A DNA stretch of 64,000 nucleotides, from assembly GCF_035825295.1 (NCBI RefSeq), contig NZ_JAYMGI010000002.1, forward strand, positions 1,488,001 to 1,552,000. Direction: 5' to 3'. Made by a program: the position numbers and the translations under genes. Of the stretch, positions 8,649 to 46,905 are shown in pieces (position 1 is the stretch's first letter; the number at the start of each line of letters is the position of its first letter). The notes beneath the pieces were generated by a model that saw only the letters and a program-made list of their open reading frames with translations, had not been told where the DNA came from and did not search any database. The DNA is from Actinacidiphila sp. DG2A-62. GTDB taxonomy: Bacteria > Actinomycetota > Actinomycetes > Streptomycetales > Streptomycetaceae.

Positions 8649-10303
8649 TCACCGGCCCAGCGCCTTCAGCTCGCGCCGCAGGATCTTGCCGGTGGCGGTC
8701 TTCGGCAGCTCGCCGAGCACCTCGACCTCGCGCGGGTACTTGAACGCCGCCAGCCGCTCCCTGCAGTACGCGACCAGCTCCGCCGCGTCGGCCCGCGCGT
8801 CCGGGCGCAGGCTGACGTACGCCTTCACGCTCTCGCCGCGGTAGGCGTCCGGCACGCCCACGACCGCGGCCTCGCGCACCGCCGGGTGGGTGTACAGGAC
8901 GTCCTCGACCTCGCGGGGCCACACCTTGAATCCGGACGCGTTGATCATGTCCTTCTTGCGGTCGACCACGTAGAGCCAGCCGTCCTCGTCCATGAAGCCG
9001 ATGTCGCCGGTGAGCAGTTCGCCGCCGGGGAGGGCGGCCTCGGACTCCCGCGGCCGGTTCCAGTAGCCGGGGACGACCATCGGTCCGCTCACCGCGATCT
9101 CGCCGGTCTCGCCGAACGGCACCTCGGCGCCCGCGTCGTCCAGGATCCTGACCATCGTGCCGGGGCCGGGCACGCCGACCGCGAGCGTCCCCGAGGCGGG
9201 GTCGACCGGCGCCTCCCGGCCGGGCGGGACGCTCGCGCAGGGCGCGGTGCACTCGGTGAGACCGTAGCCGTTGGCCAGGTACAGCCCGCCGCTGCGCTCG
9301 CGGAACGCCTCGACCACCGCCGGCGGCAGCGGCGCGCCGCCGGAGGAGATCAGCCGGAACGACGCGAAGTCCGCGGCGGTCGCGTCCGGCCGGGCCAGCA
9401 GCGCCATGAACGCGGTGGACGGGCCGACGGTGTACACCGGCCGGTGCTCGCGGAAGGCGTCCAGGACCACGCCCGGCTCGAAGCGGTACGCCAGCGCCAC
9501 CGTGTGGCCGCCGGCCAGCGCCGCGGCGAGCTGGCAGACCATGCCGGTGATGTGGAACAGCGGCGCGAGCGCGAAGTACACCGCGTCGTCGTCGAAGCCC
9601 TGGACGCGCACCTGGCGGTGGGCGTTGAAGGAGATGTTGCCGTGGGTGTTGAGCGCGCCCTTGGGGTGGCCGCTGGTGCCGGAGGTGTAGCTGACCAGCG
9701 CGGTGTCGGCGGCGGCCGGCAGCGGCACGTCGGGGCGGGGCCGGCGGCGGCGCGGGCGGCGGCGAGCAGGTCCTCGGCGTCGTCCGCGGGCAGCCGCCCG
9801 CCGCTCAGCACACGGGCGTCGTCGCGGGTCTGCAGGTCGTACTCGCTGGCGGTCAGCGCGATCGCGACGCCGGCGCCGGCCGCCGCGCGGCGCACGTAGG
9901 CGTCCCAGGCGCGCTCGGAGCAGACGACGCCCGCGGCGCCGGAGTCGGCGAGGACGTACGCCAGCTCCTGTTCCTTGTACATCGGGTTGACCGGGACCAC
10001 CGCGCCGCCCGCCTTCCACGCGGCGAGGACGGCGACGGCGAACTGCGGCGTGTTCTGCAGCATGACCGCGAGCCGGTCGCCGGGTGAAAAGCCGCCCGCG
10101 CGCAGGTGCCGGGCCAGGCCGTCGGACAGCGCGTCCAGGTCGCCGTAGCCGAGGACGCCGTCGAAGTAGCGCAGCGCGGGGTGGCCGGGGGCGCGCTCGG
10201 CATGCGCGAGGAAGGCGTGCAGCACGGACGGCGGGTAGGCGGTGTCCTGCCGCTGCTCGGGGGTGAAGTGCTTGAGCCAGGGGCGGTCGGCGTAGGCGGT
10301 CAT
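8649..10303 (-). CDS. Long/medium-chain acyl-CoA synthetase (AMP-forming), apparent frameshift
   Basis: A ligase of the ANL superfamily of about 551 codons that activates a carboxylic acid to its CoA thioester. The N-terminal half (from MTAYADRPWL, ATG 10303) reads in one frame up to about 9742. The C-terminal half continues in another frame from RPDVPLPAAADTALVSYTSG. The latter holds the AMP-binding P-loop SYTSGTSGHPKG, NGYGLTECT, GELLTGDIGFMDEDGWLYVVDRKKDMI and PKTATGKILRREL. Adding one C in the run at 9731-9742 restores G-P-R-P-D and a full protein. The start overlaps the SDR stop (ATGA at 10300-10303), so the two genes are translationally coupled. Read as given it is broken; I favour a sequence error. 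Confidence 0.85.
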
Positions 10304-42162: not shown

Positions 42163-44256
42163 TCAGCTGGTGAGAACGGCGCGCTCCCCCGCTTCGAGGG
42201 CGTAGGGCAGGGTGTTCCCGGGAGGAGGGAAAGGGCAGATGAACGCGTCGGCGAAGGCGCACGGCGGCAGTTGGGCGCGGTTGAGGTCCACGGTCGCCGA
42301 GCCGTCCGCGGCAGGGGCGGACACGTACAGGAAGCGGAACCGGAAGGTGGACGTGCCGCTGGTTGCGTCGGCGATGACGGCCCACAGCCGGCCGTCGTCC
42401 TCGACGGCGACGGACAGGGTGTGCTCGACGCCGGCGGCGGTGAAGGTGAGTTCGCCGCCCAGGGCGAGATCGCGCTCGCGGCCGTCGGCGTTGGGCAGTC
42501 GCACCGGGCGCGGAGCGTCGTACGCGCGGAAGGCGCCGGGCACCACCCAGCGCGCGTCGAAGGCGAAGGCGTCGATGCCGGCGAACGCCTTCCTCGCCGG
42601 GGACTGCGCGTCCCAGACACGCACCCCGAGCACGCCCTCGCGGACGATCGCGGCGACCTTGCGGCCGTCCGCGAGCAGCAGCGGGCCGCCTTCGGGAAGG
42701 AGCACGGCACGGTTGCCGTCCGAGGTCTCGTGCACGACGTTCCCGTTCTCCTCCCGCCAGCGGCCGGGGAGGTCCGGCGCCTCGCCGTCCTCAAGGTCCT
42801 CCAGCCAGTGGGTGGCGGTGAGGGCGAGCGGGCCGTCCGGAGCGGCGACGGACGCGGCGCGCCGCTCACGCCACTGCTCCCAGTCGGAAAACGCCAGGTC
42901 AGGTGCTTGTGTGGTCATGTGCTCAAGCCTTCCATACCGGTCGGGGGAGCCTGATGTGCTCCCGAAGGGTGGTGATGTCGCGGGGCCCGAGCGGGACGCC
43001 GGTCGCCCGAGGGGCGCTGACGGTGCGGAGGGGGCCGGCGGCGTCGGCGGGGGTGTTCGGGGCGGCGCCGGACGGTGGAGGCCGAGGTGTTCGCGCAGGG
43101 TGCCGCCCGGGTGGAAGGTGCGGAAGGCGCCGCGGTGCTGGAGCAGGGCCACCGTGCCGTTGACGAAGCGCTCCAGGTCGCGGCCGGGCTCGACCGGGCG
43201 GACCAGGAAACCGTCGACGGCGCCGGCCTCACGCCAGCGCACGACGAGTTCGGCGAGGTCGACGGGGCCGCCCCGGAAGAGCAGCCCACCGGCGCCGTCG
43301 TCGACCGGGCCGACCTCGACGCCGGGCTCGTGGCCGAGTTCGCCGTGGCCGAAGTCGATGGCGAGGTCGGCGAAGACCAGCAGCCGGTCGGGGTCGCGGC
43401 CGGCCTGGGCGGCCAGTGCGCGCAGACTCGCGCCGGTCTCGGCGGCCTGTTCCGGGCGGGCGGCGCGGACGAAGGCGATGTCGGCGTGGCGAGCCGCGAG
43501 AGCGGGGCCCGGTCCCGGCTGCCCGGCGTCCACGGCGATCACCGGCCGCGGCCGCGCGGCACGCGCGTCCCCCGACGGCGCGCAGGTGTCCCAGGCGTCC
43601 ACCACGGCGTCGACCACCGCGGCCACCGCGTCGTCCGCCGCGCCGGCCGACCCGGCGTCGGTACCGGTGCCGATGGTGGCGGACGGGGCCTGCGCCCGTG
43701 CCGCGGAGGGTCGGGGGACGGGCGGGAGTGCGACGGCCCAGCCCGCACGGCCCTCGGAGAGCCGGTCGAGGGTGGCCAGGGCGTCGGCGAGGGCGACGCC
43801 GGCCGGGTCCGGGGCGAGCAGCGGGAGGACGCCTATGCGGTCGGTGGCCGGAGCGATACGCGTGGGCAGCGCGAGCGCGTCGGGGGCGGACTCGGCGGCG
43901 CACCGCAGGACGACGAAGTCGAGGCCGCCGCTCTCGGCCAGGCGGACCAGATCGGCACAGCGCTCGACGGCGAGCGGGCCGCGTGCGTCGATGAGTGCTG
44001 CGAGGTGCAGCGCGCCGGTCGGCCGGTGGGCGCGCGGGGCGGCCTGCGGCCTTGCGGACGGCGTCCGCCCGGCCACCGGCCCGCGCGGTCCGGGCACCCG
44101 TACCCCCGCGACGACCCCGGCGCCCGCCCCGGCCGCGGGCACCGGCGCGGCACCCGAGCCAGGGCCCGCCCCGGGCAGCGCGGACGACCCGACGGGGACG
44201 GGTGGGGAGTCGGAGACGAGGTGCGGCGCGGGGGAAGGTGACGGGTCGGCAGGCAT
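42163..44256 (-). CDS. Luciferase-like monooxygenase / DUF1684 continuous ORF (fusion or two genes)
   Basis: One uninterrupted 697-codon frame with two unrelated modules. Residues ~78-390 are a luciferase-like flavin-dependent monooxygenase domain (LHLAALIDARGPLAVERCADLVRLAESGGLDFVVL, AALATLDRLSEGRAGWAV, ELVVRWREAGAVDGFLVRPVEPGRDLERFVNGTVALLQHRGAF). After a Pro/Ser/Ala linker, residue 447 onward (MTTQAPDLAFSDW...) is DUF1684. An ATG at 42918 with GGAAGG upstream could start DUF1684 alone as a 251-aa protein. Normally these are separate proteins. Either a true fusion, or loss of the first gene's stop (real or by sequence error). The first ~75 residues are low-complexity, so the LLM start is uncertain. 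Confidence 0.8.
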   Translation of the reverse strand: MPADPSPSPAPHLVSDSPPVPVGSSALPGAGPGSGAAPVPAAGAGAGVVAGVRVPGPRGPVAGRTPSARPQAAPRAHRPTGALHLAALIDARGPLAVERCADLVRLAESGGLDFVVLRCAAESAPDALALPTRIAPATDRIGVLPLLAPDPAGVALADALATLDRLSEGRAGWAVALPPVPRPSAARAQAPSATIGTGTDAGSAGAADDAVAAVVDAVVDAWDTCAPSGDARAARPRPVIAVDAGQPGPGPALAARHADIAFVRAARPEQAAETGASLRALAAQAGRDPDRLLVFADLAIDFGHGELGHEPGVEVGPVDDGAGGLLFRGGPVDLAELVVRWREAGAVDGFLVRPVEPGRDLERFVNGTVALLQHRGAFRTFHPGGTLREHLGLHRPAPPRTPPPTPPAPSAPSAPLGRPASRSGPATSPPFGSTSGSPDRYGRLEHMTTQAPDLAFSDWEQWRERRAASVAAPDGPLALTATHWLEDLEDGEAPDLPGRWREENGNVVHETSDGNRAVLLPEGGPLLLADGRKVAAIVREGVLGVRVWDAQSPARKAFAGIDAFAFDARWVVPGAFRAYDAPRPVRLPNADGRERDLALGGELTFTAAGVEHTLSVAVEDDGRLWAVIADATSGTSTFRFRFLYVSAPAADGSATVDLNRAQLPPCAFADAFICPFPPPGNTLPYALEAGERAVLTS

Positions 44257-44861: not shown

Positions 44862-46166
44862 TCAGCAGTCACACCCACAGTCGCAGCAATCACATCCGTC
44901 GCAGCAGTCGCAGTCACAGCACTGGCAGCAGTCGCAGCAGTCCCCGCAGTCATCGCACTTGTTGCACCATGCCTCGCGGCGCCGGCCGCTCCAGGCGTCG
45001 TCGTGCTCGGTGCAGCACACCCGGCAGGTGCAGCACAGGCCTGTGTAGACGAGGCAGCCGGCGATCAGGCCGCGCCGGCGCGGCGGCTCGGGCGGCGGCG
45101 GGAAGCCGCCGGGACCTGCGGGGTCGCCCGGCGCGTACGGGTTCTGCCCCGGCCCCGGCGCGTAGGGACTCCCGCCGGGCCCGGGCCCGTACGGGCTGCC
45201 GCCGTAGGGGCCTGCCGCGAGCACACCCGCGTCAGCCGCGTCAGCCGCCGCCTGCGCACGGTCGCCGCCCCCGGCCCCGCTCTCGTGTTCCGTGTGGCCG
45301 CAGCTCGTCGTGCCGAAGGCCCGGTCGACCGACCGGGCGAGCTCGTGGACCAGCAGTTCGTGGCTGAGCCGGCCCGCGGCGGAGTCGGCGAACTCCACGT
45401 CGCGCAGCGCCAGCCGGATGCCGTGCCGCGCGTCGTCGCACAGCCGCCGCGCCTCGGCCAGGTCGGTGCCGGTCGCGGTGAGCGGGTTCCAGGCGCCGGT
45501 CCTGGCGTCCTCGTCGAGGTCCTCGACCGCGTCGAGCAGGTGGGCGAGCCGGCCGAAGAGCCTGGCCTCTTCCAGCGCGGCCCGGTTGCCGGGGCGCCCC
45601 GCGAGCACGGCGGTGTGCGCGAAGGCCGCGGCGGTCGCGGTCTCGGTGGGTTCGGTGACCGCGAGCACCGGGGTCCCGGGCCCGGCGGCGGCCTCGACCG
45701 CGCCCTGCCGGCCGACCGCGTCGACCAGCACCGCCGTGTCGAAGCCGAGGTCGCCGCCGGTGCGGGCGCCGGCCCGGTCCCAGCGGCGGGCGACCGTGCG
45801 CGCGGCGGCGGCGACCGGGCGGCGCGCGAAGGCGCCGTCGGCGTCCTCCACGTGGTCGCGGACCTTGGCCGAGGCGAGCACCAGGGAGACGGCCGCGGCC
45901 AGTCGCGCCCCCTCGCCCTTGGCGACCGGAGCGGTCCGCATGCCCCGCAGCGGGCAGGGTCCCGCGGTGCGCCGTAGGTCCGCCGTGGCCGTGGACTGCG
46001 CCTCGACCAGCACGGAGATGATCAGACCGTCGTAGTTGGTCGCGACCCGCGCGAACTGCCCGTGCCCGTCGCGCAGCGCGAGGCACAGCCCGCACAGATG
46101 GGCGACCCAGGAGGCCGCCATGCCCTCCGACATCCGGTGCCGGCACGGTCTGATGATCCCGAACAT
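44862..46166 (-). CDS. DUF5685 family protein with Cys/Asp-rich C-terminal tail
   Basis: A 434-aa protein. Residues 1-~300 match the DUF5685 pattern seen also in Firmicutes: MFGIIRPCRHRMSEG, WVAHLCGLCLALRDGHG, VATNYDGLIISVLVEAQ, GPCPLRGM, AKVRDHVEDADG, LLDAVEDLDEDARTGAWNPL. Conserved cysteines suggest metal binding. Then a Gly/Pro/Tyr linker (repeats of GGSPYGPGP type) leads to a tail with 24 Cys in the last 64 residues. The final 34 residues contain 18 Cys and 10 Asp. It resembles a metallothionein-like metal sponge or a heavily cross-linked knot. Function unknown. The start is ATG 46166 behind GGGGGAG. Divergent from sflA with an operator-like palindrome between. Confidence 0.85.
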   Translation of the reverse strand: MFGIIRPCRHRMSEGMAASWVAHLCGLCLALRDGHGQFARVATNYDGLIISVLVEAQSTATADLRRTAGPCPLRGMRTAPVAKGEGARLAAAVSLVLASAKVRDHVEDADGAFARRPVAAAARTVARRWDRAGARTGGDLGFDTAVLVDAVGRQGAVEAAAGPGTPVLAVTEPTETATAAAFAHTAVLAGRPGNRAALEEARLFGRLAHLLDAVEDLDEDARTGAWNPLTATGTDLAEARRLCDDARHGIRLALRDVEFADSAAGRLSHELLVHELARSVDRAFGTTSCGHTEHESGAGGGDRAQAAADAADAGVLAAGPYGGSPYGPGPGGSPYAPGPGQNPYAPGDPAGPGGFPPPPEPPRRRGLIAGCLVYTGLCCTCRVCCTEHDDAWSGRRREAWCNKCDDCGDCCDCCQCCDCDCCDGCDCCDCGCDC

Positions 46167-46213: not shown

Positions 46214-46458
46214 TCGGGCCGGGTACACGGGGCAAGGTACGGCCGTACGGCCCTGTGAATCACCCGGAAGTGGAGAGCGTTCCCATCCGACCGTCACCGT
46301 GCTTACCCCTGCCGCGGCTTGACGGTGCGCCACTATCGTGTGTGCCAGTACCGTCACAAGTCGCCTGCTTGGCGGCAATCCGCTTGGCACATCATCCACA
46401 TCATGGACGACCATAGGTATTGCGGACGGTACGACCGCGTGTGAGAGAGGAGGCGTCC

Positions 46459-46905
46459 ATGGGTTCGGTTCGACGGGCGAGTGCCTGGCTGGGCCTCGTC
46501 GACGACAACGGCGGCGAGGGTTACTACGACGAGGAGTACGCCGACTACGGCGAGGGTGGCCCGGAGCGTGCCGACACGTGGGTGACCGACCCTCGGGTCC
46601 GGATCGCCACGGAGTCGGCGCACGAGCAGGGGCGCCGGATCGCCACGGTGACGCCCGACGGCTTCCGGGACGCACGCGGCATCGGTGAGCTGTTCCGCGA
46701 CGGTGTGCCGGTGATCGTCAACCTCACCGCCATGGAGCCGGCCGACGCCAAGCGCGTGGTCGACTTCGCGGCCGGTCTCACCTTCGGCCTACGCGGCTCG
46801 ATCGAGCGCGTGGCCAACCGGGTGTTCCTGCTCACGCCGGCGGACTACTCGGTGATGAGCGGCGAGGCCCGCCGCGGCGGCGACCGCTTCTTCAACCAGA
46901 GCTGA
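46459..46905 (+). CDS. sflA: SepF-like cell division protein
   Basis: A 149-aa SepF-family protein. The short N-terminal helix ([16 protein letters not shown]) is the membrane-binding type. An acidic linker [15 protein letters not shown] follows, then the SepF core ([72 protein letters not shown]). It is not next to ftsZ or ylmD/E, so it is a paralogue and not the main SepF. Streptomyces have such paralogues, SflA and SflB. The naming as sflA rests on memory of gene order. The start is ATG 46459 behind GGAGGCG. Its end is 10 bp from the convergent acyl-CoA dehydrogenase stop. Confidence 0.88.

Follow-up and report, generated by a model that had tools for sequence, protein, structure and literature searches.

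The window analysed here, a stretch of 64,000 nucleotides from Actinacidiphila sp. DG2A-62 (contig NZ_JAYMGI010000002.1, positions 1,488,001 to 1,552,000), carries a gene for a protein of the DUF5685 family that ends in a long cysteine-rich tail. The tail is conserved in actinomycete relatives, the core keeps near-invariant Asp and Cys residues, and in Clostridia and Coriobacteriia the gene order is DUF5685, a J-domain protein (J-protein) with a C-terminal cysteine string and, often, Hsp70. DUF5685 thus appears as a family with a predicted isoprenoid-synthase fold that is accompanied by cysteine-string tails, either fused to it or encoded by the adjacent gene. We tentatively suggest that it is a protein prenyltransferase, with the fold of the trans-isoprenyl diphosphate synthases (trans-IDS), acting on cysteines. 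In the window the target would likely be the protein's own tail, and in Clostridia and Coriobacteriia a tail-less DUF5685 would likely act on the counterpart tail of the J-protein.

Pfam assigns the window protein to DUF5685 (PF18937) with 70.5 bits (cut-off 26.7, E 2e-19) and finds no match in its tail; no NCBIfam model matches this protein or two short DUF5685 members. Residue conservation was determined on 89 diverse members (17 tailed, 72 short), obtained from 362 DUF5685 sequences by removing those below 240 amino acids (aa) and thinning the remainder below 70% identity. The features of the gene are as follows.

44862..46166, minus strand: DUF5685 gene, ATG start, 434 aa plus stop
45315..46166, minus strand: core domain, residues 1-284, predicted class I trans-isoprenyl diphosphate synthase fold
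46143..46145, minus strand: C8 (PCRHR), candidate fourth metal ligand in tailed members (17 of 17 tailed, 1 of 72 short)
46083..46094, minus strand: C25-x-x-C28 (HLCGLC), two predicted metal ligands of the core, invariant (89 of 89)
45954..45956, minus strand: C71 (GPCPL), third predicted metal ligand, invariant (89 of 89)
45837..45857, minus strand: first Asp-rich motif DHVEDAD, residues 104-110, in register with HDDVVDE of PDB entry 4lob
45480..45533, minus strand: second Asp-rich motif DAVEDLDEDARTGAWNPL, residues 212-229, in register with DDILDYTSD of 4lob
45072..45314, minus strand: Gly/Pro-rich linker, residues 285-365, mostly of low model confidence
45012..45071, minus strand: hydrophobic cysteine string GLIAGCLVYTGLCCTCRVCC, residues 366-385, mean Kyte-Doolittle hydropathy 1.64
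44865..44966, minus strand: terminal acidic Cys segment, residues 401-434, with CDC at the end, 18 Cys and 10 Asp

Cysteine tails in cis and on a neighbouring J-protein

Counting on the translation confirmed the composition given in an earlier note on this DNA: 24 Cys lie within the last 64 residues, and the last 34 consist of 18 Cys, 10 Asp, 3 Gly, Asn, Lys and Gln. That note had named absence of the tail from close orthologues as grounds for refuting its reading, and the tail was present in every one examined. Among the homologues listed (the best 120 of 3812 hits; two further listings cover the best 120 of 2006 and of 3428), 120/120 have 18-24 Cys in the last 64 residues. The same stretch holds 9-24 Cys in all 49 distinct closed DUF5685 open reading frames (ORFs) from several actinomycete families, a set that does not include L039, whose ORF is cut by the contig. 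Because the tail is kept across both sets, it is not a product of chance. A distant member of the phylum outside the class (L024, ORF of 283 aa, E 5.2e-6) has a C-terminus without Cys.

On average, the terminal 34 residues of the 49 actinomycete ORFs contain 13.1 Cys and 6.7 acidic residues, and in 35 of them the best 20-mer combines a mean hydropathy of at least 1 with at least 3 Cys. The extreme C-terminus is biased as well: the last three residues read CXC or XCC in 104 of the 120 listed DUF5685 proteins, with 35.3 expected from the internal triplets of the same tails, and in 28 of the 49 closed ORFs (12.0 expected). All the sets compared in this way consist of related sequences, so that the excess over expectation is not to be read as a probability. 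When the genome was searched for another copy of the tail that could be a separate substrate, weak matches only were obtained (E 0.002 or worse). Two tandem DUF5685 genes with different Cys tails are found at L056:7652-8914 and 9005-10219(+), and two genomes (G541 and G743) hold an additional diverged DUF5685 copy with a Gly-rich tail ending in CCGGGGCCNPCKCCCDCCD.

Searching named genomes with an alignment of the short form gave 259 loci, of which the 80 best were retained; their titles are those of Coriobacteriia, Clostridia and relatives, and some of these loci are near-identical. The short DUF5685 proteins are mostly about 275-290 aa long and have no Cys (68 loci) or a single Cys (12 loci) in their last 45 residues. 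Loci were scored for a downstream J-domain ORF when the sequence continued for at least 1 kb past DUF5685, which excluded L115 and L123. Of the 78 scored, 76 have such an ORF beginning within 300 bp of the DUF5685 end. All 76 complete J-proteins possess both the HPD motif and a C-terminal Cys string, as in ...LCLGLCLSQLFCRFCLCC (L132) and ...CMRICLINLACNMCCRCL (L146), and PF00226 was found in 3/3 J-proteins scanned. The cysteines are concentrated at the end, with 431 Cys per 1900 positions of the last 25 residues vs 87 per 16998 residues preceding the last 45. The string is retained in 43/43 J-proteins after thinning below 70% identity, and each of the 120 listed J homologues (the best 120 of 3428) has four or more Cys among its last 25 residues. 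These tails are hydrophobic (mean hydropathy 1.19) and nearly free of acidic residues (0.17 per tail). The hydrophobic string of the window protein (residues 366-385) is similar to them in character. CXC or XCC ends occur in 23 of the 76 J-proteins (6.4 expected) and in 67 of the 120 listed homologues (8.2 expected). DUF5685 domain and Cys tail therefore go together, being fused in actinomycetes or placed on the neighbouring J-protein elsewhere.

Six of seven coriobacterial-type loci have both the J-protein and Hsp70, and the seventh (L079) has neither. In two actinomycetes the tailed DUF5685 gene is preceded, at a distance of about 100 bp, by an Hsp70-family gene (L066:6319-8193(+), by Pfam, and L091:5923-7791(+)). 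The last ~130 residues of both Hsp70-family proteins look hydrophobic and membrane-like. Next to the short DUF5685 there is frequently a small gene, directly upstream in 47 of the 80 loci (L093-L172) and downstream in 5. Its product, e.g. L098:5079-5540(+), has a C-terminal zinc ribbon (Pfam, one member) and a hydrophobic middle resembling a two-helix membrane hairpin.

Predicted fold and conserved residues of the core

The structure model predicts an all-helical isoprenoid-synthase fold over the whole core. Both Asp-rich motifs of this superfamily are present in a reduced form with a near-invariant DxxxD: D104 is found in all 89 diverse members and D108 in 87, with Glu in the other 2, while D212, D216, D220 and N227 are found in 88/88 members having a residue there. 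The core thus resembles MoeN5 and the trans-isoprenyl diphosphate synthases (PF00348) in its predicted fold and in its two Asp-rich motifs. It differs from them in lacking a PF00348 match, in the replacement of a His and a Lys of 4lob, in a predicted strand pair carrying C71 and in the tail. At the place of the Gln that ComQ-type enzymes have just upstream of the second motif, DUF5685 has His in 16/16 tailed and Tyr in 71/72 short members.

The core also has conserved cysteines of its own, as the earlier note had pointed out. C25, C28 and C71 are invariant, and C8 is confined nearly to the tailed members. Position 74 shows the reverse distribution, with Arg in 17/17 tailed and His in 69/72 short members. 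This swap of C8 and His74 between lineages resembles the pattern of a fourth metal ligand, and the four positions may form a metal site.

Proposed cysteine prenylation and competing explanations

The part of PMC5331326 concerned with ComQ describes it as related to the farnesyl and geranylgeranyl diphosphate synthases, as requiring its first Asp motif, and as prenylating a Trp of ComX, a peptide encoded beside it. Section 2.4 of a 2026 review (PMC13290415) gives Trp as the target of every trans-IDS-like prenyltransferase characterised and connects Trp recognition with a Gln upstream of the second motif. Going by these sections, DUF5685 is similar to ComQ, PalQ and ChrPC in its predicted isoprenoid-synthase superfamily fold, in the retained first Asp-rich motif and in a candidate peptide substrate beside the enzyme, which would be the string of the J-protein or the fused tail instead of ComX. 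It differs from them in that the acceptor there is Trp and the candidate here a Cys string, and in having His or Tyr in place of the Gln. Further differences are the Hsp70/J partners and the Cys-rich putative metal site of the core. Since Cys is common to all candidate acceptor tails examined and the Trp-linked Gln is replaced, we take DUF5685 to work like ComQ, only on cysteine.

With somewhat greater reserve, this can be extended to the view that DUF5685 is a bacterial enzyme for the prenylation of protein cysteines, with the isoprenoid-synthase fold instead of that of the eukaryotic transferases. Its targets would be its own C-terminal string in actinomycetes and, in Clostridia and Coriobacteriia, that of a Cys-string J-protein which acts together with Hsp70 at the membrane. 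The two Asp motifs would bind a prenyl diphosphate through Mg2+, and a cysteine thiol of the C-terminal string would serve as acceptor. Modification of the actinomycete tail might occur in cis or within a complex, and elsewhere the J-protein would be modified. C25, C28 and C71, together with C8 or, in short forms, the His at position 74, would hold one structural metal ion. Once lipidated, the string may anchor its carrier to the membrane, whether this is the DUF5685 protein or the J-protein together with Hsp70, by analogy with the eukaryotic cysteine-string protein (CSP, DNAJC5).

Eukaryotic CSP carries a Cys string. The clostridial partner shares with it the J-domain, the hydrophobic Cys string and an often adjoining Hsp70 gene, and its lipidation is predicted by this analogy. 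The likeness is not based on sequence kinship, and the clostridial string differs in standing at the extreme C-terminus, following a TPR-like region. A second eukaryotic parallel concerns the tail ends. Rab geranylgeranyl transferase (GGTase2) is a eukaryotic transferase of unrelated fold. CC and CXC are given in a passage of PMC10853753 as examples of the C-terminal ends recognised by GGTase2, and the DUF5685 tails resemble its substrates in this respect. If the proposal is right, bacteria have their own cysteine prenylation, carried out by a family to which no function has been assigned so far, and also their own version of eukaryotic CSP. A passage of a 2017 review states that cysteine prenylation was not detected in prokaryotes (PMC5331326).

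A number of observations weigh against prenyl transfer. To begin with the core, the second Asp of the first motif is usually His in tailed members (13/17), and that of the second motif is replaced by Ala. In a weak alignment, the 4lob His preceding the first motif falls on Leu97 and the Lys of the 4lob KT pair on a non-basic residue; we take these to be an IPP-site and a diphosphate-site residue, respectively. Such replacements fit another acceptor and also a dead enzyme. Sequence kinship with prenyl synthases is not significant: hmmsearch with profile A1 against the PDB reached 4lob at E 0.027, and neither profile A2 nor phmmer with the window protein found anything relevant there. PF00348 was matched neither by the window protein (only DUF5685 at E up to 1) nor by five other members (E up to 10). 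In hhalign, the probability was at most 2.1% against 30 PF00348 and 24 PF00494 sequences. The best true pair scored 25.6 vs 12.2-19.3 for the shuffled, reversed and J-protein controls of the same run, and a short-form profile gave 19.8 vs 12.9-16.5, while a thinner actinomycete profile against PF00348 gave 18.5 with controls at 13.8-22.1, several of them higher. In view of this lack of significant similarity we do not file DUF5685 as a proven sequence member of the isoprenoid synthase superfamily. Identity as a squalene/phytoene synthase, a first guess from the motifs, found no profile support and was dropped.

The tails and partners add further points of this kind. The tail is modelled with low confidence, and its counts are drawn from related sequences. 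A hydrophobic string is not universal, as 14 of the 49 actinomycete ORFs have no 20-mer that is both hydrophobic and equipped with 3 Cys, and these have mainly the acidic CC-D part. The J-protein tails have no such acidic part, and the fused and partner tails may therefore differ in kind; regardless of the role of the first segment, the acidic one could bind metal. Of the 67 loci with sufficient downstream sequence, only 33 have an Hsp70 gene within 1.5 kb of DUF5685. L124 and L140, which have room downstream, and L079 have no J-protein beside the short DUF5685; the partner may be encoded elsewhere or lost. Across the window and the wide actinomycete loci L053-L072 and L080-L092 (34 in all), no J-domain gene was found beside DUF5685.

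A doubtful alternative, and the one that holds up best, is that the tail stores metal or thiol. Its CC-D-CC repeats would hold several ions of Zn, Cu or Fe, or else persulfide, and might hand metal on to the C25/C28/C71 site of the core, whose domain would be regulated by metal. Metallothioneins are extremely rich in Cys, arranged in CC and CXC patterns. The DUF5685 tail is likewise Cys-dense with such patterns, and the composition fits; it differs in belonging to a 434-aa protein, in being Asp-rich and in having no Pfam match, and the partner tails are hydrophobic. The Cys and acidic content of the terminal segments speaks for a store, as do the C-C-C-(C/H)-like set of the core with its lineage-dependent fourth position, the zinc-ribbon gene directly upstream of so many short forms, and an ABC ATPase, by eye possibly of the iron/cobalamin type, near 7 of the 80 loci (cluster 10). 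Unlike metal stores, the J-protein tails are hydrophobic and not acidic; moreover, no other shared neighbour resembled a metal system when judged by eye, and a metal role leaves the pairing with an isoprenoid-synthase fold unexplained. Metallothionein-like binding, which the earlier note had considered, is possible for the acidic terminal 34 residues, and positive support for it did not emerge here. The same note's other suggestion, a tail serving as cross-linking substrate, comes near to the tail as a substrate of modification that we favour, the difference being that the enzyme would probably be the protein's own DUF5685 domain, to which the note gave no function.

It is less likely that the core is an isoprenoid enzyme for a small molecule and that the tail or the partner J-protein is a mere membrane tether or chaperone handle keeping the core near a lipid substrate or product. 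The predicted fold, the conserved Asp motifs and the hydrophobic string preceding the acidic end would all suit such an enzyme, and the J/Hsp70 partners could serve folding or localisation. What argues against it is that cysteine, not hydrophobicity, is common to all tails examined, that their ends favour CXC/CC and that the His preceding the first motif is replaced. Least probable of all is a catalytically dead relative that senses a lipid or presents it to the Hsp70/J system, the string being bare or lipidated by something else: the substituted second Asp of the motifs, the substituted 4lob-aligned positions and the tight clostridial and coriobacterial linkage with J-protein and, often, Hsp70 genes would agree with it, and the near-invariance of the first and fifth Asp of both motifs in 89 diverse members is unexpected for a dead enzyme.

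Distribution and genomic neighbourhood

Of 396 genomes sampled across the phylum, 24 have DUF5685, as do 88 of 394 actinomycete genomes sampled across the class; many Clostridia and Coriobacteriia have it as well (at least 80 loci, the best 80 of 259). Where the best hits carry a name, it is mostly Streptomyces or Actinacidiphila. In the literature searched, which does not cover most subscription papers, DUF5685 appears in one paper as a name in a list, SCO1748 is not mentioned, and searches on bacterial cysteine prenylation and Cys-string J-proteins brought up no description of such a system.

The divergent neighbour at 46459..46905 on the plus strand is indeed the SepF-family gene sflA (PF04472), as had been noted; the link to sporulation drawn from it is weak. 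By hand count, a SepF-family gene lies within 3 kb of DUF5685 in only 23 of 48 family genomes holding DUF5685, and broken contigs may hide some: 9/9 in the own genus, 7/8 in genus g2 and 7/31 in the other genomes with the gene. Two overlapping 12-bp palindromes, GTACGGCCGTAC and GGCCGTACGGCC, exist at 46237-46252 between DUF5685 and sflA, where an operator had been suspected. In six orthologous loci with linked sflA, the region upstream of the gene contained neither of the two sequences, nor did it show a palindrome in the corresponding position, so the operator reading gains no comparative support. A repeat search of the window did not list the two palindromes. A role in sporulation or division via sflA is supported by neither the linkage nor the palindromes.

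Elsewhere in the window, at 42163-44256 on the minus strand, an ORF of 697 aa has a C-terminal DUF1684 domain (residues 556-692, E 5.4e-37) and about 550 other residues with no Pfam match; it possibly represents two genes or a fusion.
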